Assembly: GCF_028583425.1 (NCBI RefSeq)
Contig: NC_072801.1
Location: forward strand, 18,062,001-18,126,000
Length of the DNA: 64,000 nucleotides
Source of the DNA: Eublepharis macularius
Lineage: Eukaryota > Chordata > Lepidosauria > Squamata > Eublepharidae
Direction of reading: 5' to 3'
The position numbers and the translations under genes are program-made. Positions 21,401-62,467 of the stretch are shown one piece after another; the first letter of the stretch is position 1; each line of letters opens with the position of its first letter. The notes beneath the pieces were generated by a model that saw only the letters and a program-made list of their open reading frames with translations, made no database searches and was not told the origin of the DNA.

Positions 21401-24400
21401 GGCACAAGGCCAGAACTGGCATATTCATGCTTATCTATGTATTTACAAAATTATTATAAGCAAGACTTAAAGGACTTCCACCCAGACAGGTGTGTTTTCC
21501 TTTGTCACTTCTCCTCTTCCAACCTGTTTTAATATTACGTAATAAATATCCAACCAGCACCAACTTAGACTCTCAGTCATATTGGCATTTAACGCTTTTA
21601 AACACAATTTTGAGAAGACTGAACACCATAAAACAGAATGTTAAAAAACACTACCGTGAGCATTTCTGAATGTACTGTTCAGTAAAGAAGTGTTACATAT
21701 AAATGATCAGATTCATTCTCTGAACACTGTTATACAGGAAAGCAACTACCTAGCTAAGCAAGATAACATTCAAGTCATGTGACTATAAAACAAGAAACAG
21801 AAGACATTAAGCTTTTCTTTTTTAAAAAACATACCTTGCCATGCCTAGAGAATGTTTCTTGCAAAATCTGTTGCAGCTCTTTTCTGGACAGCCGGTAGTC
21901 CAAATTGCTGACCTGAATATCAGTTCCATTTGCAAAAGGATCAGAACCTTCACTATTACCAGCCTGGTTTATGATATTGAAAGTAAGAGGTGATGATCTA
22001 TTTGAGAGGTTTGGAGACACACTCCTGGTGAAATAGAGGAGAGGAACACCTAGAATTGTTTGTTCCACAGATCTGTTTTACTTTACATTACCAATTCTTT
22101 TGATAGGTACACATGGACATGCCAAAACACAGTTCCCAAACAATTCAAAAGCAATTCCTTCCACATGTGGTAATGTCTCAAAGAACTGATCAACTTCCAC
22201 AGCATATGGACTGCAGTTACACATTTTTTCATTATAATTAATTTTAAGTAATACATATCATATACAACATACCTTCATACACACAGTGTGCCGCTCCCAC
22301 CTTTTTGGGAAAAAACCCAGAGTATAAGAATGTACAAAAGCCATGGGGAAACAAAAACTTGCAGCTCTACTACCAAGGGCAATGGTAACAGTAAAGCGGC
22401 TGGCTCCTATGCTAATTGTGAAAGCAGCAAAACCAGGCAGCGCAGACTTCTGCAGAAAAGTATAACTTTGTAAATTAATCAAAAGAAAACAAGGCCAAAA
22501 CACCACCTCAGGATTAAATATGCCCCAGGAGCAGAGACTGCTAAGAACACCTGAGAAGCATTTAAAGGGGTGTGTATGTTGGATATTAACCTGTCCCACC
22601 CTCTGAATCATGGAAGCAAAGATTTTGGGGAAGAGGTCTTTCTATATTGATCCCCCTCACAGGCCCCTAACTTGCCTCGCAGAAGTTCCATATTAGTGTT
22701 AACCTTTCAATTTGTCTCAAAGAATTGCTACCCTCGGTTTACCTGTCCAGTTGCGGGTGGTCAAATAACACCCAAGTGACACCGAAAACACTACACATGC
22801 AAACACTTAGGAAGACACAAGGTACTCTGCTTACCGAAGAGAAATATATCATTGTTCCAGATACAAATCTAATAGGTGTTGCATTTCACTTACTCTATGT
22901 TTATGCTACCCTCGCACAAGCTCGAACAGCAAAAGAGTGAACAGTTTATCCTATGCACACAGGCCAACATTGCAAATATTTCCTGTTTTAGCCTTGCATA
23001 CACACTATGCAGGAAAGCGCTTTCCTGGAATATTCAGAATCTTCCAAGATAGGCACGCTTTGCTTTTGGAACCTGTACGGAGCTCTGTTTAATGATAAAT
23101 ACTTACCTTGATGACCAGCAGCTCTGAGACATCAGTAAAGGACTGAGCTGTCTTGATGCTGTCAGCATACTGAAAGCAGATGGGTAACTGACTTGGAATA
23201 CATCATCCGTCTCTTTTCTTTCTACAGGAGAGTTGCTGACGCTTCTGGCTGTAAATGAGTCCTTTCTGCAGTGAAAGAGGAAAGAATGGAAATATTATTA
23301 ACTCTGTCGTTCTTATTTGAGTCTTGTCAAAACTCAGTCCCGCTCTTGACATACTTTTGACTGTTTTTATAAACCGATTCTCCTGTTCCAGTCTTTGTAG
23401 GTGCTGAATGTGCCGTATTAGAGTTACTAAGTGAAGGGATGCTCTCTCTTGACTGATCTTGCTGGCTTTCAGGATTTCTTACAATCTTGGGACTGAGTGC
23501 CGACTCAATACGACACAGCTCCTGGAAGGAAGGAAGGAAGGAAGGAAGGAAGGAAGGAAGGAAGGAAGGAAGATGTTAGAAAGCAACTTGTATTACCCAG
23601 AAGTCCACTACTGCTATGTGAAATCAGGATCATAGTGCAACGCATGGCAAAGAGACACCAATTTGTGACGGGCTCCACCCACTGAGTCACCATTTTGTGA
23701 CTGGCTCCCAAGGCTCTTGAAAAAAATTAAGCGGTTCCCAAAAACAAAAAGTCTGCCCTCCCCTACCACAACATGTTTGGAATTAAGCAAGAGCAAACCC
23801 ATCAAATAAATCTGTAAGGCTCTACTTCCCCATTTTAATATGAAAACTTATTAAATATTGCAGAGGTATAAGTTACCTGTAGGCTCTTGATGCTTGTGCT
23901 CTTTGTAGCCGACCCATGCGTTTGAAGGCCTTTCCCTGAAAGGCCTTTAGAGTTGGAAGACTGGTCAGTCGACTCTCTGTTTGTGAGGCACAGCTTTGCA
24001 TTCTTATTCACTTTTTTGGGAGACTTCACTTTTTCAGCTCCAACTGAGGCCGTGCTCTTGGTTTCAGCAAGTTCTTTGTTTTGGGGGGCGAATGACACGA
24101 CAATCCTGTTGCCGAAGACATCTTCGTTCTCCATTCGCTTCTGAGCACGCTCGGCACTGTCTTGATTTAAGAAGCGGAGGATGGCACTGCTGCCAGAAAT
24201 GGTCAGTACTTTGCCTCCGCAGTTGTCTGACAAACGCCGGAGCCTATAACAGACGCTTTTGGTATCCCGGTTTGTTGGCAAGTTGTAAACATATAACAGT
24301 GTATGGCATGCCTAGTTCAGGGAACAAAAGATTATTAATTTGGCTTTAGAGTATTGTTTTAAAATACTTGAACACCTGCCTTTCTCCCAAGTAACCTGGG

Positions 24401-27400
24401 ACCCAACAACATAAAAACAATTAGACAAAACCAATGGAGTCATTAAAACAAATGACGCACCAAAAGCTGAGACACAAATATTTTTGACAAGGGTGAGGTA
24501 CTCATAGCAGACCTTTGGCTGAAAGACTAATTGTGCTGAAGAAAAAAAAATCTAGAAACCTTCCCTATAAAGATCTCTTTAGTTTAAGCTTTTGGCTCCA
24601 CTCATGTGGATGCTGGTTAAGAAACAATCTTGGGTTCCTATTGCAAACAAACAGGAAAAAGAGGCACAGAGAACAAAAACCAGCTGTTCAATCCTATGTT
24701 AACAAATGTTTATAGATATTTCCATAATAGACCCGGTAAGTTACCCAATTTGTATGAAATTGTGCAATGCTGATAAGTGCCTGTCTCTTGGGGCCAGGTG
24801 GAAATCAGTGCTCCAATCTACTCCCCTAAAAAATGCAGGGAGAGGGGAGATAACTTACTGGTTTTTTGAGTGGTAATCGTGGAGGCAAATCTGAAATAAA
24901 TTCTTCAAATCTGATCAGCTCATGCGCATGATGCAGGAGGGCTTCAGAAGCCTGGTTTTTATGCACCAGTATGATGTGGAAACCATGGCGGTGTCTCAGG
25001 TCGCTGAGCTCTAGTGCAAAGTTCACATCAGCTGAAAAGCAAAAGACCGACACACACACACCAATAAACGAACGTAATTTTGACAGGTTCCTGTTTTCAC
25101 AGTCATATTAGGGCGTATTTAACTATGAAAACAGTATGTCCTCCTTTCCTCTCTCTCTTCCACAGCATGTCCCTATTTGCTGTCTTGTCTGAATTCCCTA
25201 GAATGGGAATTTCTAGAATGGGAACCAAACAATGCACACGTATCTATATGAAGAGGTCAGCTGCTCAGAATAACCAAACAATATAAATGAGACGTGTGCT
25301 ATGTTTTTAATGTAGCAGTTTTTCTGCATTTGCACTAACAGAAGAAAGAAGTTTCTGGATTACTTAAGAAAATGTCTGAATCTAATTTCGTTCAGTCTGT
25401 AAAAAAACAAAAACAAACCCTCACCACCCACTGATTTTCTTGCTCATCAACAAGCTCTTCTCTTCCCCATTTCAGAGTATGGGGGAGAAAAACAGGTATG
25501 CGGGAGACTACCAGAAGGGAGGAGAGATTATATGCAAAAAAACAAAAAAGCAGCAGCCTTGGTTGCCAGGGGCTTGGGCTTAGTGCATGCACTTTAAAGA
25601 TCTTAAAGTGTTCTCTTTCCCCATTAGCCGTACCGAACCTGCCCTAATGCGAGCTACATGCCATCTTTAGTATAGGACTTCTTCACAAATGAATGACTTC
25701 TTCACTGATCCAGGATATAGCAAAGGCGGTCTTAAAAAGAACTCAGAGAATAGGCCTATCAGTGGCTATTAACTATGAGGGATAAGTGAGAACTTCCATG
25801 TTTAGAAGCAACTTAGGCTGTGACTGGCTGAAGGTCACCCAGCAAGCTTCTATGGTAGAGCAGGGAACTGAAGCTGAACTGCCCAGACCTTAGTCTGTCA
25901 CTCTAGCCTCTATACCACACTGACCCCTCAGGGTCTGAACCAAACCGAGCAGTCTGATTTTTAAGACGGGAGCAAGAGTTCACCGAACAAGCCACAAGAT
26001 CTTAAGACAAAGACACTGTTCGGACGTACTGGAAACAAGGACCACGGTGGCGGGTGCAGCATGTGTATCGGCAAATCTTCTAAGACTCTGTCGGAGTTTG
26101 TCATCAGCTGCATTCTTTGCTGTGGCGTTGATGTGTGCAACCGTCACCTAAAGAAAAGAAGGAACATAATACTGATGGGCAGGGGTCATTTCGTAGAAAA
26201 AGAGCTGGAGGAACTCATTAGCATAACTCATTACCATATGGCATGCCCCTTGACATCACCAGTAGTGTGTCATTAGCATAACTGATTTGCATATGCCACA
26301 CCCCCTGACATCACCTATACTGGCTGTTTTGGACCCAATCCTGCCCATTCAGGGCCGAAATTGGGCCCAAAATGGCAAAAGGGGGCTAAAAATGGCTGAA
26401 AAGGGGCCCAAAATGGTCAGGATTGGGCCACTGCTGAGTGGGAGAGTGATCCACCACCCCTCAGAGGCCCGATCCGGGCTGAAATTGGCCAAAAATGGCC
26501 GAGAGTCAGGTGGGCAGGGCCACTTGACATACGACCTTTTGGGGGAACTGCCGGAACTGCGTTCCTGCGTGTTCCCCCTCAAAATGAGCCCTGCTGATGG
26601 GACCTGATAACCAATCATTATGTTGGCAATGTATATCCCAGAGAAAAGGTTATAAATGAATTGTATGAATATCTAAACAACTACTTGGAGTACTAGCAAC
26701 TTAGGTTTTAAAATTTTACAGTTATACAATAAAAAGTCCCCATCCAAAGCATTTCAGGTAGGGGCAGTGCTGATCAAAGTAATGAAGGTCACTATCAGTA
26801 TTCCCTTCAGTGCCAGAGGAAGGCAGGACAATGATCTGGGATTTGGTATGGCTCTAAGCATTAAAAAGAGGCACCCTGTCACCACTGCCACCATGCTGAA
26901 GAAAACAAGCGAGTACTAGAATTGATTAACTACATTTGCTGTTCGTTGCCTTAGATTCTTCTTTTTGAAATTGGGAGGGGCATAATTTTTCTTTTTAAAC
27001 AAAAACAATCCTCTACTATCCCTATATCACTGGCTGTGTTGGAAGACAACAACATCATGGGTACAGTAAAGCTAACTTGCAAGTAACTGCCACCTTCCAA
27101 AATCACCTTTTTCTTGAACTTTGCTATAGGGCAGTGCTTTCAAGGCTATAGAGCTGATGGGCTTTGGGCCTAAGTATTCCAAGATTTCCCTAAATGCAAG
27201 TCTCCTTCACACAACTGGAACAGCAAGCACGTAGTGTGCACAGAGACAGTTCAACCCCCAGCATTACCAACTCAGTGCAAGGGAAAACAAAGCCCTTGCA
27301 GTGCTGCTACCTGTCCCAATAAATGGTATCTGGCCATATGAACCCACAGCAAATCAGCACAAGAAGATACAGCTCTATACCTTCTCCCCATTTGTTGCCA

Positions 27401-30400
27401 CGTGAGAAGCCAAGCCATGTGAGGTAGGAGAATCATTTTTTAGTTTGTATACCTACACCCTCACTGTTAGGGAAACAGAGTCTAAAACCACCCTGTGCAG
27501 ATATCTTAGTACTGACAGTGCAAAGTAAAAAGGTTTTCATACATTTTCGCTATTGTATTTTTCACAAAAAATGCCTCTCAGTCAACTCCAAGACATACTT
27601 CAACCAGTTTTGTCTTCTGGAAACTATTATGGAATATTTACATGTACACTGCACATAAGCTAAATATGGCATACTTGTGGCCATATTTTGTTGTTAGTTT
27701 TTTCTAAATGAAAGCTAAATGTACGTTACGTGACCTCAGACACCACCCCCCAATGTGTCACTGGCTATAGCTCTTTCAGGGCTCTGAATGCTGTGTAGTA
27801 GCAAAGAGCACCTAACTGTACCCTAGTGGCCCTGACCAAATCTGTATTTACCACATTACTCTGCTTGTCTAGGTGAATAACTAAAGAGGCTAATATCCAA
27901 ACCAAACAAAAAACCCTTTCCAAAAAACCCTTTTCCATCATGACATCAGCTTCCAACGTTAAGCAACTGACTGTTGATCTGCTGTTTTAACCTAGAAAGC
28001 GGAATAATCAGCACCACAGGCTGTTAACCCAATAATGCACAGCTTGTTTTCACACAGCTTATCTTAGAATCTGAGCCAGTGTGACAACACACAGAGTTTC
28101 TAGTGGATACGAGGCTTTCCCACAAGCCATCTCTTCTTATTTTCAACACCACCTGTCCCGGAAGACCCCGAAGCACCAGTGTATTTTACCTGGCAGTTGT
28201 TCAGCTCCTCAATAACTTCTTTGTTCTCTTTACTGATGTCACACACACAAATGAATTCTGCCTCCCGGTGGCCTTTAAAAAACTTTTCACGGATTCGCTG
28301 TACAACTGCCACAGCTGAACGGCCTGATGGAACAGAGCAGTTTTCAATGTCCCAAAAAACTCCAATTGGAGGCAGGTTCTCTAGCACTTGGCTAGCCAGG
28401 GCGACTTCTGGAGGTCCTGTAATTAGGGGGTGGGGCGGGAAAGCATGGAGGAAAAAACAAACAAATCAATCAGGACTTTTCAATACTGCTTTTGTGAAAT
28501 CCTGCTGCATTTTCACAGGGTTGCCAGTCACACACACACAAAAGAAGCTGCCTTGTATGGAATCAGATCATTAGTCTATCAAGGTCAGTATTATCTACTA
28601 AGACTGGCAGTGACTCTCCAGGGTCTCAGGCAGAGGTCTTTCCCATCACCTGCTGCCTGGTGCTTTCAACTGGAGATGCCGGGGATTGAACTTGGGACCT
28701 TCTGCATCCCAAGCAGCAGCTCTTCCGCCAAGCCAGAGCCCCTCCCGCAACAACAACAAACATCAGAATTTACTAAGGAATTTTTAAGCCCTTCTAAGTA
28801 TATCTGAGGAAAGTTTCACTCATATTAAGAACAGCCAGACAAAACGAATCTATGATCCCTCATCCCACATCAGAGGTGCCCTTTTATGGCCAGTGCAACT
28901 GCTGTGCATGAACAGCAAAGGAGGGTTTTTTTTCCAGAGCAGCCCTATAGAGTCTTGGATAAAGTTGCTGTTTGTCACCAGCTCACAATGGCCTAATGAG
29001 ATTTGTACCATTTCAAGCACTGAAGCAAGTGAGTAGAACTGGGAACATCTAGATTTGCAAGTTAGGGCCTAGCTTGCATATTATGAGAGGCATACATAAA
29101 AAGAGAACAAAACAATTCATAGTTTTGTCATCATCTTTGGGGGGGGGAACCCATAGATGAACTATCTTCAGACAGAAACAAAACACTGTTATACCATATT
29201 TCTGTGGCAACTGTCCAAAGCTGCTTGCCAGTAGTAAGCTCTTCTCTTTCCTTGTCCCTTTGGTTCCGCAGCCATTACACAGTGGGACGGACACAGATGG
29301 CGCCTGAGCATTTGGAGGTGGAATATTGGGCCAGATTTTAGCTGCATCCACCAAACTCTCCCTGGATGGCTATTGGGAAAGAATTCATCATTGTTTTAGT
29401 GTACTTTCTTAATCACACCAACAAGAGAGAAAGGCACTTAATGAACCTTGGTCCCAAACACAGATGAAGAGCACTGTGATGCTATTGCAAGGGATTATTT
29501 AACCCAAGATCTCCTCTTTCCAGAGTTCTGGGTTGGCCACTGTTTTGGAACAGGCCCTGATAAACTTTCTTTGGCTCTAGGAGCCATCCCCAAAATTTAG
29601 GAACTAGACTTCAGTTTTGTATTTTGATACCATATTATCTGCTGTACCACAGTGGTTAAGTGGCTGGGCTACGAATCGCGCTCTGCAAGTTTGACTCCCA
29701 CTACTGCCATGAACTCTGCAGGTGGCCTTGGGGAAGTCATTTCTCTCAGCCCCAGCTGGACTGTGGTGATAACAACAACACTGACTTTGTTCACCGCTCT
29801 GAGTGTGGAACTAATGTGTCCAGAAGGGAAGTATATTACTATTATTATTATTACTGCAACCACAACCTAACCCTAAACTCTACTATTTCTTGTAATTTTA
29901 TTAAAGCTATGACAATTTTTTGTAATACATAAATATAGCGTTTCCATGTTTGTCATCACCACAACATAAAGCTAGCATGGAACCCCAACCCAATTTCTCC
30001 TCAATCACACACAATTCTATTATTGCTTTTAAAAGCTCTATTTAATTGAATATTGGAGCTAGTCTAGAAAGCAACTGGTTAAGAAATGAATTTATTTACC
30101 ACCAGTGAATTATGTAAAATTAATAAATAAAACAAGCAATGAAAACAACTTCAAGAGCATGTTATTTTTATGTCATACATATCCAGATGTGAAATGCTAA
30201 ATCTGTGTTTCTCCAGAGAATCACTGAAAGACTACAATAAAACCACTGCTGGAAATACGATCTCAGGCAGAAGGTTTTTTACATCACCAACTACCAGATG
30301 TTTTGATGCCAGGAACTGAACGAGATGCTCTACCACTGAGCCATAGACCCATTTGGGAGGCTCAGGCTATGACATTTCAACAGCTTCATGAAGGCAACAA

Positions 30401-32095
30401 TTATCTGCACAAATCTGTGCTCACCCTAAATTCAAAATACAGCCTAAACTAACCCTGGCCCACAGATTCTCAATGTAAAAGTAGAAGAATAAATCCCCAG
30501 AAATATTTTTCCTCCTTGTCAAGCTTTAAGAGAACCCTTATAATACACAGTATAAGAGAATACAAACCTTGCTCAAACACTCACTGCAGTAGTGAGAGCC
30601 CTTTAAACATACAGAAGGTGGCACTTTTAGCTGCAGTGAGGTGGTGCAAACACAAGAAGCGTGTTCCGATTGTGCAATGTGTTCTTCCAGAAGCCCTGTA
30701 GCCCCACTTGTGAATTCAGAGCAAGAACAGTAACCTGAAGATGTGTAGCTTTGATGGGCAGGAAACTGATGCCGTGTATGCACATTACCATGACAGGACT
30801 GAAAGTGGATTTTCCCGCAGTAGGGGAAGTGCGGACAGGAAGAGATGTTATTTTCTAGGCAGACTCCGGACAAGTCGCTTGCAATGCCTGCCAGGCCGCT
30901 CCTAACTGGAACAGTCTTGAGTGAGGACAGAGACGGATAAGCAAGCCCTGACCCTACTTGACAAGTGACTGTCCCAGTGCCTTGTGAGTCCAACACCGCA
31001 CCAGCGTGAATCAAAGCGCCGCCACCACTATGGAGCTGAGGAGCGGCATCAGAGCCACGAGCACAACAGCTTACTTTGGAACCAGATGAAAGTTGCATTT
31101 GCTTTTGCTGAAGCGAGTGAACGTCGGGAAGGGGGATAGCTGCTAACTGTGTGGAACCAGAGTGGTGAGGAGGTGAGGCATCCTTCAACTCCGCAGGACC
31201 TTTCTTGTTCTCCATGGGCTCATTCTGAGGGGTAAAGAGTCATTGCAGAGAAGGTTTAGTGCTACAGCAGTAATGAGGCTGCATCTTCAACAGACAGCGC
31301 TGTATAGAATAGAGACACAGGAAGTTTTCCTAAGTCTCACTGCTTCGTGAAATGTGCCCAGGTTTGCAGGCTTTGTTTACCAGAAGTATCTGTATGACAC
31401 ATTCTTCGTCACATCCTCCACCCCCACCCTGCCCGTTAGCAATATGGGAAAAAAAACACCTACTCTTATCACAAAAGCAATAAAAGGATATGTATATCTG
31501 CTAACTTCAGATTTCTAGATTTTCAAGTTTGCTTAACCCTGAGCTAAAGAATGTATGGATCATATTTACTGACTGCATCTCTCCCCCATTCCCTCCATAT
31601 AGTCAAATCTATATTTTACTAGGAAAGTAGTTAAGAGCTGCTAAGCAGATTTGTCTATTTCACCCGAATTGCTTCGGAAAGCTCCGATTCAGGACTCCCA
31701 AATCGGGCCCACGATGCTGGGCTCAATTCGGAAACCCCAAATCTTTATGAATCAGGTCCCATTTGGATTTTTATCCCCAATCAGAAACCCGAATTGCACA
31801 CCCCTAGTTATGAACAGTTACTAAAGTGGGAGGGGGGCTTCTTCCATCTTCAACAGTAGATTTTATATTGCTCCATGCAACACTCTTTATCAAATAGACC
31901 CCAGGCCTATGACACAGTTCCAAATTTATTAAGTTTACATCCAAATCCTACCGTCTTTGCAATGGAAGGCAAATTTTGTTCTGCAGCCAAAAAACAATTA
32001 GAGAATTTCCAGAGCCATGGTTTAGCATCCTTATCTTGCCGCTGAAGCCATCCAAGTGATCTAGTACAGAGGTCCTCCGTAGTATTTCTTTCCAT
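207..32095 (-). CDS. MARF1: MARF1, meiosis regulator and mRNA stability factor 1 (26 coding exons)
   Basis: Seen: 26 minus-strand exons with GT-AG borders whose phases all agree and whose lengths sum to 5,232 bases (1,743 codons plus stop). Domain order: N-terminal Cys/His-rich region (residues about 50-325), NYN ribonuclease (about 330-480, GVFWDIENC and [14 protein letters not shown]), RRM1 (about 500-580), RRM2 (about 775-850), eight LOTUS/OST-HTH repeats (about 860-1540) and a basic tail. Known of the family: MARF1 is an oocyte-enriched cytoplasmic endoribonuclease that lowers selected mRNAs and retrotransposon RNAs; LOTUS and RRM domains bind RNA and the NYN domain cuts it. Exons match the recalled human protein almost throughout; the last exon is the exception. 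The start is ATG at 32,093-32,095, giving [10 protein letters not shown]. The 3' UTR runs off the left edge; I saw no AATAAA on the minus strand in 1-206. The neighbour upstream is a lipid transfer protein gene on the same strand. Confidence 0.96.
461..1991 (-). other. MARF1 last intron, no gene seen
   Basis: Intron between coding exons 25 and 26. It holds a short TG-rich run near 1,555-1,575 and no open frame with recognisable protein similarity. I see no complete repeat element. Confidence 0.6.
1992..2162 (-). CDS. MARF1: MARF1 coding exon 25
   Basis: Residues 1603-1659. Reads [20 protein letters not shown], then [20 protein letters not shown] and [10 protein letters not shown], strongly matching human. 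Donor CTG|GTAAGA. Confidence 0.94.
2839..3676. mobile_element. hAT-like non-autonomous element with degraded 8-bp target duplication
   Basis: Ends are inverted (TAGGGGTGTGC at the left, GCACTCCCCTA at the right). The flanks GTCAGAGG and GTCTGAAG look like an 8-bp target duplication with two changes, the size typical of hAT. The interior is unique, partly G/C-rich sequence with no transposase. Lies in a MARF1 intron and looks old. Confidence 0.6.
3990..4127 (-). CDS. MARF1: MARF1 coding exon 24 (C-terminal linker)
   Basis: Residues up to 1602, less conserved: [20 protein letters not shown] and [13 protein letters not shown]. The phase fits both neighbours (two leading bases, one trailing). 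Confidence 0.85.
4221..4281 (-). CDS. MARF1: MARF1 coding exon 23 (micro-exon)
   Basis: 61 bases. Reads [20 protein letters not shown], identical in style to the human segment after LOTUS 8. Donor AAA|GTAAGT. It is too short to be found by ORF length alone. Confidence 0.92.
4615..4850 (+). repeat. tRNA-derived SINE
   Basis: The head has the A box (GGGGTTAAGTGGTTCGGCTG) and B box (GGTTCGAATCCC) of a tRNA promoter. A conserved body and an ATT microsatellite tail follow. The same family recurs at about 29,637 and, more distantly, at 59,520. Confidence 0.85.
5085..5240. repeat. Interspersed repeat with GAAAGCTTAT core
   Basis: A degraded copy of a sequence seen again at 18,715, 36,885, 45,160 and, in inverted pairs, at 60,780-61,341. 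Shared core: a tag like GTGGCACCTTAAAGACTA next to GAAAGCTTAT. Confidence 0.5.
5674..5883 (-). CDS. MARF1: MARF1 coding exon 22 (LOTUS 8)
   Basis: Residues 1467-1536, phase 0 both ends. Contains [40 protein letters not shown] and [10 protein letters not shown]. The final LOTUS repeat. Confidence 0.94.
5884..7379 (-). other. MARF1 intron, nothing recognised
   Basis: Intron between coding exons 21 and 22. It contains a local near-duplication around 6,755-6,790 (CCCTATACCTTAGGA twice, about 27 bases apart) and otherwise unique sequence. Confidence 0.5.
7380..7610 (-). CDS. MARF1: MARF1 coding exon 21 (LOTUS 7)
   Basis: Residues 1390-1466, phase 0 both ends. Contains [40 protein letters not shown] and [10 protein letters not shown]. 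Confidence 0.95.
8240..8467 (-). CDS. MARF1: MARF1 coding exon 20 (LOTUS 6)
   Basis: Residues 1314-1389, phase 0 both ends. Reads [20 protein letters not shown], then [20 protein letters not shown] and [19 protein letters not shown]. Confidence 0.95.
8805..8994. mobile_element. Foldback element with perfect 16-bp inverted ends
   Basis: Left end TCATGGGGTTGGATCC and right end GGATCCAACCCCATGA are exact inverted repeats about 190 bp apart. The interior has no coding capacity. Lies in the intron between coding exons 19 and 20. The superfamily is not clear because no target duplication was found. Confidence 0.6.
9571..9773 (-). CDS. MARF1: MARF1 coding exon 19 (LOTUS 5)
   Basis: Residues 1246-1313. 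Contains [40 protein letters not shown] and [13 protein letters not shown], the repeat most like LOTUS 3. Confidence 0.96.
10587..10720 (-). CDS. MARF1: MARF1 coding exon 18 (LOTUS 4, second part)
   Basis: Residues 1200-1245. Reads [20 protein letters not shown], then [20 protein letters not shown] and IPKR. Acceptor TCTAG|GTGTTT; donor AGAG|GTATGT. Confidence 0.94.
11133..11655 (+). mobile_element. L1 LINE, 5'-truncated 3' end
   Basis: Encodes an ORF2 C-terminal remnant ([20 protein letters not shown], then [13 protein letters not shown]) followed by a short 3' UTR and an A-rich tail. Similar flanks (ATCATCCTTACGG before, ACCATCCTTATGG after) look like a target duplication with a few changes. 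It lies antisense to MARF1 in the large intron. Confidence 0.7.
11785..11895. repeat. Short repeat, LINE/SINE 3' tail family
   Basis: Carries CTCACTGAGACTCCAGG and GGATTACAAAATG. The same unit recurs at 16,068, 34,355 and 49,355, so it is an interspersed family, probably the 3' part of a LINE or its SINE partner. Confidence 0.5.
12045..14206 (+). mobile_element. Penelope-like element with inverted terminal repeats
   Basis: Seen: a 13-bp duplication ATATTAATAAACA flanks the element exactly (12,032-12,044 and 14,207-14,219). Near-identical inverted repeats of about 105 bp lie at 12,047-12,152 and 14,068-14,172; they share CTGACGTTTCACCAGCAGCTG at the left, read inverted at the right. Between them is one long ORF with Penelope-type RT and a GIY-YIG endonuclease. 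Known of the family: such terminal repeats in direct or inverted order are typical, as is 5' truncation. The N-terminal end of the ORF is missing. The insertion is in the MARF1 intron between coding exons 17 and 18, antisense to the gene. Confidence 0.92.
12174..14012 (+). CDS. Penelope-like reverse transcriptase with GIY-YIG endonuclease
   Basis: The open frame runs from about 12,174 (no clean start; first in-frame ATG at 12,285) to TGA at 14,010-14,012. RT motifs in order: [38 protein letters not shown] (catalytic Asp), [17 protein letters not shown] and [11 protein letters not shown] (catalytic Asp pair). Near the C-terminus lies a GIY-YIG nuclease: [29 protein letters not shown] and a later REAIEIHKH with the expected Glu. 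Known role: target-primed copying of the element with a nick made by the GIY-YIG nuclease. The usual N-terminal region is absent, so this copy is 5'-truncated, but RT and nuclease are open without a stop. Confidence 0.9.
   Translation, partial: KLPTSNITRKERNAIKTLNADPDIIILPADKGNATVIMKTEEYKKKIKELLDPSTYKKLKRDPTCKITRLTNALIKNSSLHPDTHRKLCKTEAQPPRLYGLPKIHKVSVPLRPIVSAIGSPTYELAIHLADLLQDHIGKTSSYIKDSADFINKISSLKFNPQDILVSFDVVSLFTKVPVKDTIALINQIFPEDVTALFHHCLTTSYFQWDNEFYEQMDGVAMGSPLSPVIANFYMEHFEKTALESAPHKPSVWFRFVDDTFIIWSHGEEELMGFLNHLNNIHLNIQFTMEKEIEGKLPFLDTLVIRKANFQLGYRVYRKPTHTDRYLHKNSNHHPRQKRGIMKTLVDRARRICEPHFLNEEINHLNHALQANGYSRNEIRRAIKPRMNQTTKEKQSPTGKVFLPYIKGITDQMGKLMKKHNLQAVFRPTRKIQQMLRSAKDSRDPLTSAGVYRIPCSCGQVYIGTAKRSIQTRIKEHERHCRLGQPEKSAVAEHSLTQTGHSILFQDTKILDNTSNYFVRLHREAIEIHKHKQNFNRKEETLRMNRAWFPVLKNTRLTKHSIPDNSPAEKISASSTNPYAKEPPQDTVKPPAISIPHPGKLSQDDSAQPHPS
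14746..14942. mobile_element. Long-hairpin foldback element, GGCCGTTTYCACAC family
   Basis: Left arm starts GGCCGTTTTCACACTGCTTA and the right arm is its inverted copy with several changes. The overlapping ORFs on both strands reflect the palindrome. Related copies: 47,688, 51,866 and 53,484. Confidence 0.7.
15189..15331 (-). CDS. MARF1: MARF1 coding exon 17 (LOTUS 4, first part)
   Basis: Residues 1154-1200. Reads [20 protein letters not shown], then [20 protein letters not shown] and EFLQAYHW. Joins the next exon across a 4.5-kb intron that holds the Penelope-like element. Confidence 0.94.
15622..15842 (-). CDS. MARF1: MARF1 coding exon 16 (LOTUS 3)
   Basis: Residues 1080-1153. Contains [40 protein letters not shown] and [13 protein letters not shown], a clear LOTUS winged-helix repeat. 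A 5S-derived SINE lies about 25 bases upstream of the acceptor. Confidence 0.96.
15866..16012 (-). repeat. 5S rRNA-derived SINE
   Basis: Read on the minus strand, the head follows 5S rRNA: CTGATAAGACT/GAGACC region, then a match to GGGCCCTGGTTAATACTTG and GGGAGACC, followed by the tail GGCAATGGCAAACCACGT. Shorter and more worn than the copy at 45,345. It lies about 25 bases from the exon 16 acceptor. Confidence 0.75.
16068..16170. repeat. Short repeat, LINE/SINE 3' tail family
   Basis: Carries TTATAGCGCACCTTTCTCAG and GAGTCTCAAGGC, the same unit as at 11,785, 34,355 and 49,355. Confidence 0.5.
17093..17268 (-). CDS. MARF1: MARF1 coding exon 15 (LOTUS 2, second part)
   Basis: Residues 1021-1079. 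Reads [20 protein letters not shown], then [20 protein letters not shown] and [14 protein letters not shown]. Ends with one base of a codon that the next exon completes. Confidence 0.95.
17371..17573. mobile_element. hAT-like foldback element with 8-bp target duplication
   Basis: Inverted ends (CCGGGCTTTTTTTCC and GGAAAAAAGGCCCTG in its simplest form) lie between exact duplications GGCAAAAG (17,363-17,370 and 17,574-17,581). The interior shares GATCTCCAGACAGAGGGGAG with copies at 55,500 and 62,567. Non-autonomous, no ORF. Lies in the intron upstream of coding exon 15's donor side neighbour, exon 14/15 boundary region. Confidence 0.85.
17574..19520 (-). other. MARF1 intron interior, one old repeat
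   Basis: Part of the intron between coding exons 14 and 15. A degraded repeat lies at about 18,715-18,800 (family of 60,780). The rest is unique sequence; a small Cys/Gln-rich plus-strand ORF at 18,285-18,521 shows no recognisable domain. Confidence 0.5.
19521..19640 (-). CDS. MARF1: MARF1 coding exon 14 (LOTUS 2, first part)
   Basis: Residues 981-1020. Reads [20 protein letters not shown] and [19 protein letters not shown], matching human except for one or two changes. Confidence 0.94.
20366..20602 (-). CDS. MARF1: MARF1 coding exon 13 (LOTUS 1)
   Basis: Residues 902-980. Reads [20 protein letters not shown], then the highly conserved [20 protein letters not shown] and a [20 protein letters not shown] segment. 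Confidence 0.95.
20825..20905 (-). CDS. MARF1: MARF1 coding exon 12 (start of LOTUS 1)
   Basis: 81-base exon, residues 875-901. Reads [20 protein letters not shown], then TAIYEKK. Acceptor TTGCAG|TTCAG; donor AAA|GTACGT. It opens the first LOTUS/OST-HTH repeat. Confidence 0.93.
21160..21338 (-). CDS. MARF1: MARF1 coding exon 11 (RRM2, second part)
   Basis: Residues 816-874. Reads [20 protein letters not shown], then [20 protein letters not shown], the RNP1-side strands and last strand of RRM2, matching human closely. Confidence 0.95.
21835..22024 (-). CDS. MARF1: MARF1 coding exon 10 (RRM2, first part)
   Basis: Residues 752-815. Reads [17 protein letters not shown], then [20 protein letters not shown] and FSRHGKV, the first strand and helix of the second RRM. 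Phase 0 at the end. Confidence 0.95.
23107..23265 (-). CDS. MARF1: MARF1 coding exon 9 (linker)
   Basis: Residues 699-751. Reads [20 protein letters not shown] and [20 protein letters not shown], which match the human linker between the two RRMs. Donor AAG|GTAAGT is close to consensus. Confidence 0.92.
23355..23521 (-). CDS. MARF1: MARF1 coding exon 8 (linker)
   Basis: Residues 644-698, a low-complexity Ser/Pro/Gln linker ([16 protein letters not shown]...). The acceptor CAG is fed directly by a TTCC microsatellite read on this strand (23,524-23,572). Donor AAAA|GTATGT; ends with two bases of a codon. Confidence 0.88.
23524..23572. repeat. GGAA/TTCC microsatellite, about 12 units
   Basis: Uninterrupted GGAA repeats on the plus strand. 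On the gene's strand they read TTCC and end two bases from the CAG acceptor of MARF1 coding exon 8, so the array is the pyrimidine tract of that splice site. Confidence 0.95.
23877..24311 (-). CDS. MARF1: MARF1 coding exon 7 (RRM1)
   Basis: Residues 499-643. Begins [16 protein letters not shown], an RNP2-like strand, followed by [20 protein letters not shown] and [15 protein letters not shown]. This is a full RRM fold followed by a Lys/Ser-rich linker. 435 bases, phase 0 at both ends. Confidence 0.95.
24859..25031 (-). CDS. MARF1: MARF1 coding exon 6 (NYN domain, end)
   Basis: Residues 440-498. Carries the second acidic cluster ([20 protein letters not shown]) and ends [12 protein letters not shown]. 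Phase 0 at the end. The C-terminal acidic motif of the NYN fold is intact, so the nuclease looks functional. Confidence 0.96.
25825..25925 (-). repeat. tRNA-derived SINE, partial
   Basis: Read on the minus strand it starts with a tRNA-like head; on the plus strand it shows AAGGTCACCCAGCAAGCTTC and ends in TCTATACCACACTG. Same family as 53,930-54,128. Worn. Confidence 0.65.
26030..26147 (-). CDS. MARF1: MARF1 coding exon 5 (NYN domain, middle)
   Basis: Residues 402-440. Reads [20 protein letters not shown], then [19 protein letters not shown], matching the middle of the mammalian NYN domain. Too short to stand out as an ORF. Flanked by TTTAG|GTGACG and CCA|GTACGT; a hAT-like element begins 33 bases upstream of its acceptor. 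Confidence 0.93.
26180..26593. mobile_element. hAT-like non-autonomous element, 8-bp target duplication
   Basis: Exact flanking duplications CTGATGGG lie at 26,172-26,179 and 26,594-26,601. Ends CAGGGGTCATTT and AAAATGAGCCCTG are imperfect inverted repeats. The interior has repeated ATTAGCATAACT and TGACATCACC, then several GGGCCCAAAATGG-like units. No transposase. It lies 33 bases upstream of the MARF1 exon 5 acceptor. Confidence 0.88.
26602..28189 (-). other. MARF1 intron interior, nothing recognised
   Basis: The rest of the intron between coding exons 4 and 5. Mostly unique sequence, with no ORF showing protein similarity and no complete repeat. Confidence 0.5.
28190..28416 (-). CDS. MARF1: MARF1 coding exon 4 (NYN domain, first part)
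   Basis: Residues up to 401. Carries the first acidic motif of the NYN/PIN-like nuclease ([20 protein letters not shown]) and [23 protein letters not shown] nucleases hold a metal ion with such aspartates. Donor CAG|GTAAAA. Confidence 0.96.
28541..28745 (-). repeat. tRNA-derived SINE
   Basis: On the minus strand it opens with a tRNA-like head whose B box reads GGTCCCAAGTTCAATCCCC. The body ends in a segment whose plus-strand form is AGAAGCTGCCTTGTATGG. The same family is seen at about 30,240 and 50,480. Confidence 0.75.
29195..29369 (-). CDS. MARF1: MARF1 coding exon 3
   Basis: Residues 268-326. Reads [19 protein letters not shown], then [16 protein letters not shown]. The acceptor AATAG|CC was chosen because the downstream AG (CCAG|GG) breaks the frame and loses the residues that match human. 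Ends with one base of a codon. Confidence 0.93.
29637..29862 (+). repeat. tRNA-derived SINE
   Basis: The head GTGGTTAAGTGGCTGGGCTA and a B-box-like GTTTGACTCCC are followed by the shared body and an ATT tail. Second copy of the family at 4,615, in the intron between coding exons 2 and 3. Confidence 0.85.
30240..30355 (-). repeat. tRNA-derived SINE, partial
   Basis: Plus-strand text GATGCTCTACCACTGAGCCA is the inverted tRNA-like A-box head, as in the family at 28,541. Truncated body. Confidence 0.6.
30568..31224 (-). CDS. MARF1: MARF1 coding exon 2 (large N-terminal exon)
   Basis: Residues 49-267, 657 bases, phase 0 both ends. Starts [15 protein letters not shown] and ends [12 protein letters not shown]. 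It is rich in Cys, His, Ser and Gly with CxxC-like pairs ([18 protein letters not shown]), as in mammalian MARF1. An internal ATG at 31,215 corresponds to an alternative start sometimes annotated in the family. Confidence 0.95.
31655..31806. mobile_element. Partial hAT-like element, family of 2,839
   Basis: Repeated AATCGG/CCGAATT words and the right end TTGCACACCCCTA match the ends of the element at 2,839. The left end is not clear. Confidence 0.45.
31952..32095 (-). CDS. MARF1: MARF1 coding exon 1
   Basis: Residues 1-48, phase 0 at its end. Contains [13 protein letters not shown], which matches the mammalian N-terminus. The 5' splice acceptor is likely at about 32,104 (CATAG), leaving a few untranslated bases before the ATG. 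The donor is G|GTAGG. Confidence 0.92.
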
Positions 32096-37239: not shown

Positions 37240-37388
37240 CACATAGTTAGGCCGCATAGACCTTAACCTAAATTAGCACATAGTTAGGCCACATAGACCT
37301 TAACCTAAATTAGCACATAGTTAGGCCACATAGACCTTAACCTAAATTAGCACATAGTTAGGCCACATAGACCTTAACCTAAATTAGC
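37240..37388. repeat. 37-bp tandem repeat, four copies
   Basis: Units start at 37,240, 37,277, 37,314 and 37,351. Each reads CACATAGTTAGGCCACATAG, then ACCTTAACCTAAATTAG. The copies are nearly identical (one change seen in the first), so the expansion is recent. It ends 166 bp before the LTR element. Confidence 0.95.
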
Positions 37389-37554
37389 ATCTAGAAAAGG
37401 AGAGGTGGGAGAACAAATAGATCAGCCCCACCACCCAACGGTTCATCTGTAAAGTTGTTTGCCAGGGCTTATGCAGAAGAGAGGCTTAAGCCAAAAGTTT
37501 CTTTTGGCTCTAAACTACAATATGAATTTGGCCCTAGATTTTATAGTATGTGTG

Positions 37555-38489
37555 TGTCCGAGGCCCGACACGCCGGCCTCGGACTCCCCCCACCCCCACC
37601 CCCCCGACGACGCAGAGCCCACCTACCGGGCGGGAGAAGCCAAGGACGAGGCCCCACCGGTGGAAGAAGGCCCCAGCGGCTGCGCCGCCGCTGCGCCGCC
37701 GCCCGCCGCCGCACCGGAGGAGAGGAGCCCGAGCGGCCACGACAGCGGGCGCACTCGGAAGCGGCGGCCGGCGCGGTCAGCGCTCTGGCGGCGACGGCCC
37801 CGTCCGGGCCGCGGGGAAGGCCGCAGCGAGCGGGGCGAGGCCGCGCCGGGCTGCCAAACGCCAGCGCAGGCGCCCTCGGCCAAGCAGGAGGGCGGCCGGG
37901 GCCAGCAGGGGGGAGGGAGGAGCAAGCCAGCCTGTGATTGGAGGGCGGCCCGGGGAAGGGCCAGATCGCCCCGTCAGGGGCCTAGCCCGCCGTCCATCAC
38001 AGGGCAGGAGGGAGGAGGGCAAGAGGCATTGGGGGAGAGCGGGGCAGCCCGGCTAGCAGCCCACCAACGGGGTAGAGGGAGGTGGGCCCAATGGGCTGGG
38101 ATGCAGGTGGCACAGGTGTTGGGATTGATGGTGGGTGGAAGCACTCGGGGGTGAGGGTGGAGCTGGAGTGGGGAAAGTATTTAAGGAGGCTCTGGAGGCA
38201 GGCCGAGGAGGAAGGTACTGGAAGAGACATAGCAGGTGCCCGGCATCCTAAGGCGAGCACCCTGCCATTTGTCAGCCGGCTGCCCTGAAGGTTAAGGCGC
38301 AGCCAGCCGGGTGGAGCCACGTGCTGACCGGCCCGCCGGTCAGACAAGGGCCGCCCTAGTCTGAGGCCGCCTGTGAAAGAGCCTCCACGCTTCCTTGGGG
38401 ACCCGCCCAGCCGCTCCAGGCTACCAGCACGGACCCGCCGGGACCGCCCCGCCCAGACCCGCCGCCAGGGGGCGTGCCACAGCCTGACA
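37555..38489 (+). repeat. 5' LTR of the Ty3/gypsy-type element
   Basis: 935 bp, TGTCCG...TGACA, very G/C-rich. It holds a likely promoter region (GGAAAGTATTTAAGGAGGC, TATA-like, at about 38,173). Same length as the 3' LTR. Confidence 0.95.
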
Positions 38490-41400
38490 TTGTGGTGGAG
38501 AATGCAGGCACTGATCCTGCTGTGAGGCGCCCGCGACCCCACCTTCCGACCCCGCCCGGGTGGACGAGGCCTCGCACCTATTTGCGCCCGGCAACATTCG
38601 GCCGGCCCAGGCTTGACTCCGAGGCGGTACCGACGGAGGGCACCCCCATGGACCAAGCAGCCGCCGCAGCGGCGGGCGGGGCCGGGCAGCCTGCGGCCCC
38701 TACGGCCCTGGACTTGGGCCAGCTCAGCCAATGGATGGCCGAGCAGCAAGTGCGGCTCCTGCGGGACCTGACGGCACAGCAGCAAGAGTCACAGGCTACA
38801 TTGCTCCGTGGACTGGCCCAGGCCCTGGGGGCCGGACCCGCCGCTTCGGTCCTCGGCCCTGTGCGGGGGGCCCCCTTTCAGCTGACCAAGCTGGGAGAGG
38901 CGGACGAGATAGATGCCTACCTGGAGGCATTCGAACGCACAGCGGAAGCCGCCCAGTGGCCCCGAGACCAGTGGGCATTCATCATTGGCCCTTATCTGAC
39001 GGGAGAGGCCCAGGCGGCCCTGAGGGCCCTACCCAAGGAGGAGAGCGCTGACTACCGGGTGCTGAAGGCCGCTATTCTCGACCGGTATGAGGTGACACCC
39101 GACTCCTACCGTCAGAAGTTCAGGTCCATCACCTACAAAAAGGTCGAGCGGCCCAGAGCCCTGATCAATGCGCTACGGGATGCCGCCTACCGGTGGCTGA
39201 AGCCCGCCTTGGAGGGCGAGAAGAAGATCGTGGATCAAGTGGTCCTGGAGCAATTGCTCAATATCCTCCCCCCCAAAGCCCGACAGTGGGTAGCCTGCAG
39301 CCACCCCGCGAGTCTGAAGGAAGCCACGGCCCTCCTAGAAAACTTCGCCGCGGCGGCCGACCCACGCGAGGCCCCCCGGGACACGGGCCCAGGAACAAGG
39401 ACCAGCGGGTCCTCCCCTCGGCCTCTGGAAAACCCGCGCCCGGGGAGGGCCAGGTCCGGGGCCCGGGAGGCGTCGGGGCCGCGACCGGGGGCTTCTCGGG
39501 CACCCCCGCTGCTCCCCGGTCGGGAGGGGGCCTGGGGCAGACCCCTGGCCGGGCCCGGACCGGAGGCCGCCCCAAAGAGTTCCCGAGACCCCGAAGACCG
39601 GGGCCCGTGCTTTAAGTGCGGCCAGCGGGGCCACTTCATCCGCGACTGTCCGCTGATGGAGTGTGACGCTGGCTGGGAAGAAGCCTACCCGGTGACGGCC
39701 CGCCCGCCAAGGCTGCCGCCGCTGATAGTGATGGTAGAAGTGGCAGGGCGGCGCCTGTCCGCCTTCTTGGATAGCGGCAGTTCCATTTCGATGATCCGCA
39801 CACGCCTGCTACCGCCCCACTTACCCATCGTCCGCTCGACGGCCGTGGCCTGCTTCCATGGCCACTCGGAGACCTACCCGGTGGTACGAGTGCCTCTGAC
39901 CTGCCGCGGCCAGACCTGGGAGGTAGAGCTAGCCCGAGTACCGGCCCTGCCCTACCCTGTTCTCCTGGGCCGCGATGCCCCCAGCTTCCACCAACACCTC
40001 CAGGCTGCACGCGGGCCCGAGGAAGCCTTGCCCGCGGAGGACCCGAGGGAGGGACCCTCCACGGTGAACGACCCCACAGCAGACCCGAACGCCCAGGATT
40101 GGTCGACGGACCCCAGCTTCATCGCCCGCCAAGCGGACGATCCCACTTTAGGTGGGCTCCGAGACGCCGTGGCGGTGAGTGAGGGGGTCGTGATGGATGG
40201 CAGGCGGGCTGGGAGAGTACCTCGGGTGATCCAGGAAGGGGGCGTGTGGTTCCGCATCACGAGGGCCAGGGGTGGCGAGGTCCGACAGCTTCTGGCCCCC
40301 CAAGGCTATCGACCACGTATACTCGCCCATGCACACGACCACAGCTGGGCCGGACACCAGGGACCTGCTAACACCTTGGCCCGGGTGCTGGCCCGATTCT
40401 TCTGGCCCTCGGTGTCCCGAGACGTGAAGGACTACTGCCGCACCTGCGAGGTCTGCCAGCGAACAGCGGGTCGGCCACCCCCGCGGGCTCCTTTGGCACC
40501 ACTGCCCGTGATCCGCACGCCCTTCGAGAGAGTGGCTATGGACTTCATAGGCCCGTTGCCGCGGACCGCCCGGGGATGCAGGTTCGTCCTCGTCCTGGTG
40601 GATTACGCCACTCGGTACCCGGAGGCCATACCCCTGCGGACGATGCAGGCGCCCGGCGTGACGCGCGCCCTGGTACGATTCTTCGCGCAGGTGGGCATCC
40701 CCAAGGAGCTGGTCACGGATTGTGGCACCCCGTTTACGGCCTCCGTCACCCGTCAGTTATGCCGCACCATGGGAGTACGGCAGATCTTCACCTCCATATA
40801 CCACCCTCAGACAGATGGCCTAGTGGAGCGGTTCAACCAAACGCTCAAACAGATGCTACGGCGTCTGGCCCACGACCGCCCAGCCCAATGGGACCTCTTC
40901 GTGGACCCCTTGCTGTTCGCGGTCCGCGAATCGCCTCAAGCGTCCACCGGCTTCACCCCCTTTGAATTAATATATGGGCGCAACCCTCGGGGGATCCTGG
41001 AAGTGATGGAGGGGCGGCGGGCCGAGTCGTCGGAACCCCCAGGGAGGCCCGCCCCTGAATATATGAAGGAGCTCCAGGAACGATTAGAAGCAGCCAGGAC
41101 TCTGGCCGGGCAGAATCTGGAGAAGGCCCAGGCGGCCCAGAAGGCCCGGTACGATCGCGGGACCCGGCTGAGAACCTTCAAGGAAGGGGATCGGGTCCTG
41201 GTCAACCGCCGCGTCTTCGGGCCCGGGCACCACGGTGACCCATGGCGGGGTCCCTTCCAGGTCAAGAGGGTATTGGGGTCCCATTCCTATGAGGTCCAGT
41301 GTGGCGCCTCCCCCCGTCAGTCCAAACGCCTGCACATCAACGACCTCAAGGAGTGGCAGGAGCGACCCTCCGGCACCTGCCGACTCGCGGACGACCCACT

Positions 41401-42889
41401 GGACCCGCCAACGGGAGAGCTCCCGTGGACGGACCGCCAGCCGGAGGAAAACGCGCCAGGGCTCGACGAGGCGTTGGAGCCCCACCAGCGGCAGCAACTC
41501 CGGGCGCTGCTGAAGGACTTGCCCGGCTGTTTTTCCACCCGTCCAGGACGCACCCACCTGGCTGAGCACAGGATTCCCACAGACCCCGGCCAAGTGGCCC
41601 GGGCAACCTGGAGGCCCCTCCCCCGGAAGCAATGGGAGGCCGTGGCCCGAGAGGTGGAGGAAATGCTACGCCTGGGAGTAATCCAACCCTCACACAGCGA
41701 GTGGCGCAGTCCCATTGTGCTGGTCCCGAAACCGGATGGGTCCGTGAGGTTCTGTGTCGACTACAGGGAGGTAAACAAGGTCGCAAAGTTCGACGCGTAC
41801 CCCATGCCCCGGGCCGAGGTGCTAATCGATCAGCTAGGCGCGGCTCGCTACCTGTCGGCGCTAGACCTAACCAAAGGATACTGGCAGGTTCCCATGGCCC
41901 CGGGGGACCGCGAGAAAACGGCTTTCGCCACCCCCCAAGGGCTGTTTGAGTTCAAGGTCATGCCTTTTGGGTTGCACGGGGCCGCCGCCACCTTCCAGCG
42001 GCTGGTGGACCGGGCGCTGGCTCAGTGCCAAGGTTTCGCCACCGCCTACATAGACGACATCTTAATCTACAGCCCTGACTGGCCATCCCACCTCCGCCAT
42101 CTCCGCCAAGTGTTACGAGCCCTCCGGGACGCAGGGCTGAAGGCCAACCCCACCAAGAGCCGACTGGGCTTCCAGGAGCTGAAATACCTCGGGTTCCTCG
42201 TGGGGCGGGGGCAGCTGAGGCCCCTCCCGGACAAGGTGGCGACACTGGAGGCATGCCCCCTGCCGAAATCCAAGAAGCAGCTTAGGGGGTTTCTGGGGCT
42301 GGTTGGCTACTACAGTAAATTTATCGCACAGTACGCCAGCCGAGCCAGCCCCCTTACGGACTGCCTACGCAAAGACCAGCCCAACCAGGTCCAGTGGACG
42401 CCGCCCCGGCGACAAGCCTTCCTCGACCTCAAAGCCGCTCTGTCCGGGTCACCAGTCCTGCGCAACCCTGACTTCGACCGGCCCTTCATTCTTCAGACGG
42501 ACGCATCCGATAGCGGGCTCGGGGCCGTCCTGTCCCAGGACCACGGCGGGCAGGAGCACCCAGTCCTGTTCATCAGCAGGAAGCTCCAGCCAGCTGAACG
42601 CCGTTACGCGGTCGTGGAAAAAGAGGCCCTCGCTGTCAAGTGGGCTGTCGGGGCGCTGCAATATTACCTCGCTAATAACCCCTTCACCCTCGTGACGGAC
42701 CACGCCCCCCTTGTCTGGATGTCCCGGCTTAAAGATCACAATGCACGCGTGCTAAGATGGTATCTGGCTCTTCTACCCTTCAGCTTTACGATCCGGCACA
42801 GGCCAGGGAAACAGCATGTCAACGCCGACTTCCTGTCCCGGATGTTCGCCGGGGAAGCCACGCCCGACGCAACGCAAAGAGGGGGGGGG
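38474..42889 (+). CDS. Gag-Pol polyprotein region of the LTR element
   Basis: Single open frame; the likely translation start is the ATG at 38,649 (MDQAAAAAAGG). In order: Gag capsid-like region; zinc knuckle CFKCGQRGHFIRDC at about 39,608; aspartic protease AFLDSGSSISMI at about 39,761; integrase H2C2 finger (about 40,330-40,460) and catalytic core (MDFIGPLP, VTDCGTPF, HPQTDGLVERFNQTL, about 40,537-40,850); reverse transcriptase (SALDLTKGYWQVPM, YIDDILIY, about 41,600-42,250); RNase H (LQTDASDSGLGAVLSQ, about 42,490-42,830). Known: most Ty3/gypsy elements place integrase last; here it precedes RT. The frame stays open into the 3' LTR. Confidence 0.93.
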
Positions 42890-43824
42890 TGTCCGAGGCC
42901 CGACACGCCGGCCTCGGACTCCCCCCACCCCCACCCCCCCGACGACGCAGAGCCCACCTACCGGGCGGGAGAAGCCAAGGACGAGGCCCCACCGGTGGAA
43001 GAAGGCCCCAGCGGCTGCGCCGCCGCTGCGCCGCCGCCCGCCGCCGCACCGGAGGAGAGGAGCCCGAGCGGCCACGACAGCGGGCGCACTCGGAAGCAGC
43101 GGCCGGCGCGGTCAGCGCTCTGGCGGCGACGGCCCCGTCCGGGCCGCGGGGAAGGCCGCAGCGAGCGGGGCGAGGCCGCGCCGGGCTGCCAAACGCCAGC
43201 GCAGGCGCCCTCGGCCAAGCAGGAGGGCGGCCGGGGCCAGCAGGGGGGAGGGAGGAGCAAGCCAGCCTGTGATTGGAGGGCGGCCCGGGGAAGGGCCAGA
43301 TCGCCCCGTCAGGGGCCTAGCCCGCCGTCCATCACAGGGCAGGAGGGAGGAGGGCAAGAGGCATTGGGGGAGAGCGGGGCAGCCCGGCTAGCAGCCCACC
43401 AACGGGGTAGAGGGAGGTGGGCCCAATGGGCTGGGATGCAGGTGGCACAGGTGTTGGGATTGATGGTGGGTGGAAGCACTCGGGGGTGAGGGTGGAGCTG
43501 GAGTGGGGAAAGTATTTAAGGAGGCTCTGGAGGCAGGCCGAGGAGGAAGGTACTGGAAGAGACATAGCAGGTGCCCGGCATCCTAAGGCGAGCACCCTGC
43601 CATTTGTCAGCCGGCTGCCCTGAAGGTTAAGGCGCAGCCAGCCGGGTGGAGCCACGTGCTGACCGGCCCGCCGGTCAGACAAGGGCCGCCCTAGTCTGAG
43701 GCCGCCTGTGAAAGAGCCTCCACGCTTCCTTGGGGACCCGCCCAGCCGCTCCAGGCTACCAGCACGGACCCGCCGGGACCGCCCCGCCCAGACCCGCCGC
43801 CAGGGGGCGTGCCACAGCCTGACA
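42890..43824 (+). repeat. 3' LTR of the Ty3/gypsy-type element
   Basis: 935 bp and almost identical to the 5' LTR. Preceded by the polypurine tract AAAGAGGGGGGGGG (42,876-42,889). The pol frame runs about 600 bases into it. Confidence 0.95.
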
Positions 43825-43829
43825 GTGTG

Positions 43830-46351: not shown

Positions 46352-62467
<16,116 letters not shown>

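Follow-up and report, generated by a model that had tools for sequence, protein, structure and literature searches.

A young Gmr1-like Ty3/gypsy retrotransposon with a SCAN-type capsid in the genome of Eublepharis macularius

To which group does a retrotransposon belong whose integrase (IN) and reverse transcriptase (RT) are of Ty3/gypsy type, yet follow one another in the order usually linked to Ty1/copia? The question is raised by an element of 6270 bp with long terminal repeats (LTRs) at positions 37555-43824 of a 64,000-nucleotide stretch of DNA from the squamate Eublepharis macularius. This stretch, hereafter the window, is C12:18062001-18126000 of an assembly of 2.24 Gb in 72 contigs, and positions below are those of the window unless a contig is named. 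A reading made from the sequence only had proposed a young Gmr1-like copy. Our analysis indicates that the element is very probably a young, structurally complete Gmr1-like Ty3/gypsy LTR retrotransposon, and that its capsid ends in a SCAN domain which had gone unnamed in that reading.

Domain order and relatives of the element

The Pfam search, run on four separate pieces of the element's frame, gave SCAN, zf-CCHC, RVP, Integrase_H2C2, rve, RVT_1 and RT_RNaseH in this order within a single open frame, in agreement with the order of Gag, protease (PR), integrase, RT and RNase H (RH) that the sequence-only reading had described. The RVT_1 match (3.1e-22) lies in one piece and its tail in the next, below the cut-off (0.0054); RVP scored 19.7 bits against a curated cut-off of 20.7 bits, with its LDSGSS motif present. 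The DD35E motif of the integrase, the YIDD motif of the RT and the acidic motifs of the RNase H, which we take to be the catalytic residues, are all found in the frame. Among the solved structures of the Protein Data Bank (PDB) the best match was Ty3 for the RT, the RT-RNase H and the integrase pieces, for the integrase narrowly (9.6e-27, with foamy virus integrase almost level at 1.3e-26), in accordance with the Ty3/gypsy type assigned to both enzymes, which is also that of the Pfam models. On the Ty3 chain 7q5b_A the integrase piece aligned with residues 1090-1286, the RT piece with residues 584-754 and the RT-RNase H piece with residues 759-1016. Since the match to 1090-1286 precedes that to 584-754 in the element, its order is permuted, the reverse of that of Ty3, in which RT comes before integrase. 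No Ty1/copia-type RT model was reported by Pfam at E<=0.01, and NCBIfam returned transposase matches to the integrase only, every one under cut-off. Chromoviruses carry a chromodomain behind the integrase and place RT before integrase; the Pfam search of the element gave no Chromo match. Nor did the piece after the RNase H match any env model, as would be expected of Retroviridae, which likewise have RT before integrase; it gave a weak MATalpha_HMGbox match under the cut-off in another part of it.

Papers are cited here and below for the excerpts of them that were available. In these, the order PR-IN-RT-RH is that of Gmr1 of Atlantic cod and of Gmr1-like elements (PMC2582038), and integrase is placed upstream of RT in Gmr1-like elements by two further papers (PMC8220671, PMC3587641), so the sequence-only reading was right to name Gmr1 as the known exception. 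The sizes given for Gmr elements of Tetraodontiformes (PMC11117352) include those of the window element in length (6270 bp; 6058-6465 there) and in Gag-Pol (1613 aa; 1506-1634 there), whereas its LTR of 935 bp is longer than their 337-518 bp; this likeness to named Gmr1 elements is one to published descriptions, not one of aligned sequences. The element thus combines RT and integrase of Ty3/gypsy type with an integrase upstream of the RT, and its Gag has a SCAN-type C-terminal capsid half, a feature that we do not claim for all Gmr1-like elements. The SCAN capsid supports the Gmr1-like placement as an independent character, and the element, young and with its Gag-Pol frame open, is a new member of this known group. 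We found no paper on this very element in a literature search that mostly left out subscription papers.

Searched with the RT core, the contigs of GTDB yielded 51 pattern matches, and six contigs from metagenome-assembled genomes (MAGs; L001-L006) encode eukaryote-like Ty3/gypsy relatives. The nearest, L001, encodes a SCAN Gag (6.2e-10) followed by integrase, RT and RNase H; protease and CCHC models were not reported in it. RT precedes integrase in L003-L006, with a chromodomain over the cut-off in L004 and L005 and below it in L003, and the sequence of L002 ends after the RNase H. Unrooted trees of the RT (7 rows) and of the integrase (6 rows) both split the window element and L001 from the rest at 100/100. 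The two are 43% identical in RT and 44% in integrase, but 23.5% in their SCAN halves. No relatives were found in the viral contigs of IMG/VR. L001 itself is NZ_JASJAV010000046.1, a 6.4-kb contig binned as a Breoghania MAG; as this is a Gmr1-like SCAN-Gag element on a contig binned as bacterial, it probably stems from eukaryotic contamination. The Ty3/gypsy contigs L002-L006, too, come from MAGs of prokaryotes.

Copies and age of the family

The LTR search of the assembly gave 361 first-look candidates, and the 40 that were scored all showed at least 97% identity. Ten simple pairs account for 20 of them and a tandem array for three, and the remaining 17 stand alone. Within each of the ten pairs, of which the window copy is one, there are 1 to 12 differences, and 45 of the 55 in total lie at CpG sites when gaps are excluded. 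In the window copy the two LTRs, said to be equal in the sequence-only reading, do share the length of 935 bp, but are not identical: one of the 935 sites differs, a CpG site with G at 37763 and A at 43098. Assuming a rate of 1-2 x 10^-9 changes per site per year, the insertion is about 0.3-0.5 million years old, with a 95% interval for divergence that extends to 0.006; the remaining nine pairs date to about 0.5-6.5 million years. Together with the open frame and the target duplication, the near-identical LTRs bear out the description of a young, whole-looking copy.

Two of the 17 single LTRs (C1:78.77 Mb and C7:94.19 Mb) were found to have a partner outside the scored 40. Two-LTR copies thus number 12 with the window copy and recur on many chromosomes; 11 have a perfect 5-bp duplication and the twelfth agrees at four of five bases. 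The GTGTG noted earlier is indeed present on both flanks of the window copy. Fifteen LTRs are solo, with a perfect duplication in 13 and agreement at four of five bases in the other two; internal sequence was absent from the inspected flanks, 1.5 kb for four and 0.5 kb for eleven. A second copy, on another chromosome, reads LTR-CA-PR-IN-RT-RH-LTR (CA, capsid). For the RT core there were 16,627 first-look candidates, members of other element families possibly among them; all 150 scored places lie at 80-100% identity (38 at 96% or more, 79 at 86-95% and 33 at 80-82%), and integrase precedes RT in the one place inspected from each of the 80% and 82% subfamilies. The element family is therefore large, dispersed and young, with several subfamilies. 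Elsewhere in the 64-kb window no further copy was found at E<=1e-3.

The tandem array lies at C10:19559292-19570897 (L015, L035) and runs LTR-internal-LTR-internal-LTR and the start of a third internal region, with no LTR in the stretch expected for a fourth nor in one stretch further on. The capsid frame of its first unit looks broken. The array perhaps arose by LTR recombination.

The capsid, the host SCAN loci and rival explanations

The Gag matches five solved SCAN sequences, ZNF24 best. According to the excerpts available, the SCAN domain has its origin in a Gmr1-like capsid (PMC4592553, PMC3406341, PMC3424704), and in frogs it is reported in Gmr elements only, in over half of them (PMC4131045). 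A 2024 study of domesticated capsids states that capsid models missed the human SCAN proteins (PMC11011659), so the link between SCAN and capsid can be invisible to some methods.

Our SCAN search of the genome gave 1642 first-look candidates, and none in 14 control genomes. All 150 that were scored exceed the cut-off, none with fewer than 130 bits, and they lie at C4:155-188 Mb (most of those listed), C2:4.8-13.9 Mb and C12:54-66 Mb. In eight of the 30 best loci the N-terminal half of the capsid also matches, directly before the SCAN domain (E <= 4e-5); three further matches weaker than 0.05 were left uncounted. Protease, integrase, RT and RNase H gave no match at 1e-3 in these 30 loci (about 3.3 kb each), and when four capsid-plus-SCAN loci were taken with more flank, three had C2H2 finger arrays downstream. 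Such loci resemble the ESCAN zinc-finger genes known from Anolis, the Gmr1-like elements of which were reportedly treated by Emerson and Thomas in 2011, in work known through citing papers. In that lizard, too, elements with a SCAN-type capsid stand beside SCAN and ESCAN zinc-finger genes (PMC4592553, PMC3406341). The size of the assembly, together with so many SCAN and ESCAN-like loci, suits a lizard or another squamate. Over both capsid halves the window Gag is 32-37% identical to the eight host loci and 25% to L001. A SCAN tree of 32 rows has no starred branch, and we therefore take the direction of borrowing from the literature. A single-sequence fold of the capsid (mean pLDDT 50.6) was not used.

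The order of the enzymes, unusual for Ty3/gypsy, would also be that of a chimera in which an integrase and an RT from two different elements had been joined by assembly or recombination. The probability of this is practically nil, as the same order of parts recurs in the second copy and in the two diverged subfamilies, the RT and integrase trees agree and one open frame spans both enzymes; an assembly chimera in particular is excluded by a multicopy, dispersed and young family of repeated structure. Just as hard to credit is a Ty1/copia element with an RT that is similar to Ty3/gypsy in appearance only. The domain order would fit it, but RVT_1, Integrase_H2C2 and RT_RNaseH match where no copia-type model was reported, and of all solved structures Ty3 is the closest to the RT and RT-RNase H pieces, as it is to the integrase, there with foamy virus almost level. 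It is very unlikely that a Ty3/gypsy lineage arrived at the copia-like order on its own, apart from Gmr1. This reading draws on the lack of a named Gmr1 sequence in our trees; against it speak the SCAN-type capsid, in the excerpted frog survey confined to Gmr elements (PMC4131045), and the sharing of both this capsid and the integrase-first order with L001.

An extremely unlikely alternative concerns the capsid only: the SCAN half would not have been inherited but taken back by the Gag from a SCAN gene of the host. In favour of this, the SCAN half of the Gag shares 32-43% identity with the 30 best host loci and less with that of L001, and the SCAN tree, in which no branch is starred, places it, on a long branch, beside two host loci at 89/88. 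The same identities would, however, result if the host had borrowed from a tetrapod Gmr1 Gag; moreover the SCAN half directly follows an N-terminal half that itself has matches among the host loci, and the Gag of L001 matches SCAN too. Several points do weigh against the reading as a Gmr1-like element. The trees have L001 as a stand-in for Gmr1, and the RT row of the window has an unusual letter make-up. In the SCAN tree the two Gags, of the window and of L001, sit apart on very long branches. The protease is below the Pfam cut-off in one and unreported in the other, and no primer tRNA could be tied to the candidate primer-binding site by a genome pattern search and ARAGORN. Taken together, the data still point to a Gmr1-like Ty3/gypsy retrotransposon.

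Working, setting and meaning of the insertion

The Gmr1-like element would work as follows. An RNA started in the LTR would be translated into one Gag-Pol protein, and a capsid with the SCAN-type C-terminal half would assemble around the element RNA, while cutting would release protease, integrase, RT and RNase H. The cDNA would be primed just inside the LTR and at the polypurine tract, and its insertion would yield the 5-bp duplication. The anatomy, the open frame with its motifs, the target duplications, the dispersed young copies and the solo LTRs are the observed footing of this scheme, and the window copy is presumably still able to move. Coordinates are given in Table 1.

Table 1. Parts of the element and its flanking duplications, in window positions
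Feature	Position	Strand	Evidence
Target-site duplication GTGTG, left copy	37550..37554		
5' LTR, 935 bp, TGTC...GACA ends	37555..38489	+	
TATTTAA, possible TATA box, within LTR	38178	+	
Candidate primer-binding site, 3 bases past 5' LTR	38493..38505	+	read from sequence
Single Gag-Pol open frame, 1613 codons from first in-frame ATG	38648..43489	+	
Capsid N-terminal half	38873..39097	+	aligns with host ESCAN-like loci and L001 Gag
Capsid C-terminal half, SCAN domain	39098..39355	+	PF02023 2.3e-23; solved ZNF24 SCAN 3.1e-13
Gag CCHC zinc knuckle	39608..39649	+	Pfam zf-CCHC, motif
Aspartic protease, LDSGSS at 39767	39728..39979	+	Pfam RVP 0.0011, slightly under cut-off; motif
Integrase: H2C2 zinc domain and rve core with DD35E	40298..40828	+	Pfam, PDB, motif
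GPF motif, presumed GPY/F-like integrase C-terminal module	41249..41257	+	
Reverse transcriptase, YIDD at 42047	41723..42196	+	Pfam RVT_1; PDB best match Ty3
RNase H	42470..42778	+	Pfam RT_RNaseH 6.9e-36
Polypurine tract	42876..42889	+	
3' LTR, 935 bp, one difference from 5' LTR (43098)	42890..43824	+	
Target-site duplication GTGTG, right copy	43825..43829		

The final 199 codons of the Gag-Pol frame lie inside the 3' LTR. Among 2000 first-order random LTRs 2.8% allow a read-through of this length, and the GC-rich LTR and its surroundings contain further long frames; the extension could therefore be due to chance and we claim no function for it. With one mismatch allowed, the primer pattern occurs at 524 places in the genome and its reversed control at 74. 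Many of the places listed are alike and perhaps are copies of a short interspersed element (SINE). Of eight such loci run through ARAGORN, a single one, with one mismatch to the pattern, contains a tRNA (tRNA-Ala); the six exact places contain none. Self-priming by the LTR was considered and is unsupported, the longest match being 6 bases. In the window ARAGORN reports a tRNA-Pro (28671-28742, minus strand), and as its 3' end resembles many of the genome-wide primer-pattern places it may be a tRNA-derived SINE. Rfam at gathering thresholds had zero matches in the window.

A 37-bp tandem repeat of about four units (37240-37424) lies immediately to the left of the insertion. The left half of the window holds MARF1 on the minus strand, with OST-HTH, MARF1_LOTUS, RRM_MARF1 and NYN matches at 15496-28465 and a solved MARF1 chain that also matches its exons; the frame at 30538-31239 we take to be its first large exon. 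A GC-rich stretch at about 34.7-35.4 kb, judged from the frames, may be the MARF1 promoter, which would put the element about 2 kb upstream of it. On the other side an exon with a VWD domain (52305-52574, minus strand) belongs to a neighbouring host gene, possibly, as a guess, a large lipid-transfer protein. Probable fragments of long interspersed elements lie on the plus strand at 12144-14012 and 55696-56388, with an RVT_1 match and a zf-RVT match below cut-off.

The integrase-first order is a known property of Gmr1-like elements and the finding is thus not new in kind. The most interesting point is that this lineage stands alongside very many host SCAN loci, and it raises the question whether capsid-derived host domains act against the group of retrotransposons from which they came, an action that has been published as speculation in the part of the source available (PMC4592553). 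One could imagine that a still-mobile lineage of the SCAN source and a still-growing, very large host set of SCAN and ESCAN zinc-finger genes coexist in continuing conflict, the host domains binding or poisoning the capsids of the element, although we hold this to be rather unlikely. A young element whose frame is open and whose Gag carries SCAN, in a chromosome-scale genome with so many host SCAN loci, offers a natural test case for that question.

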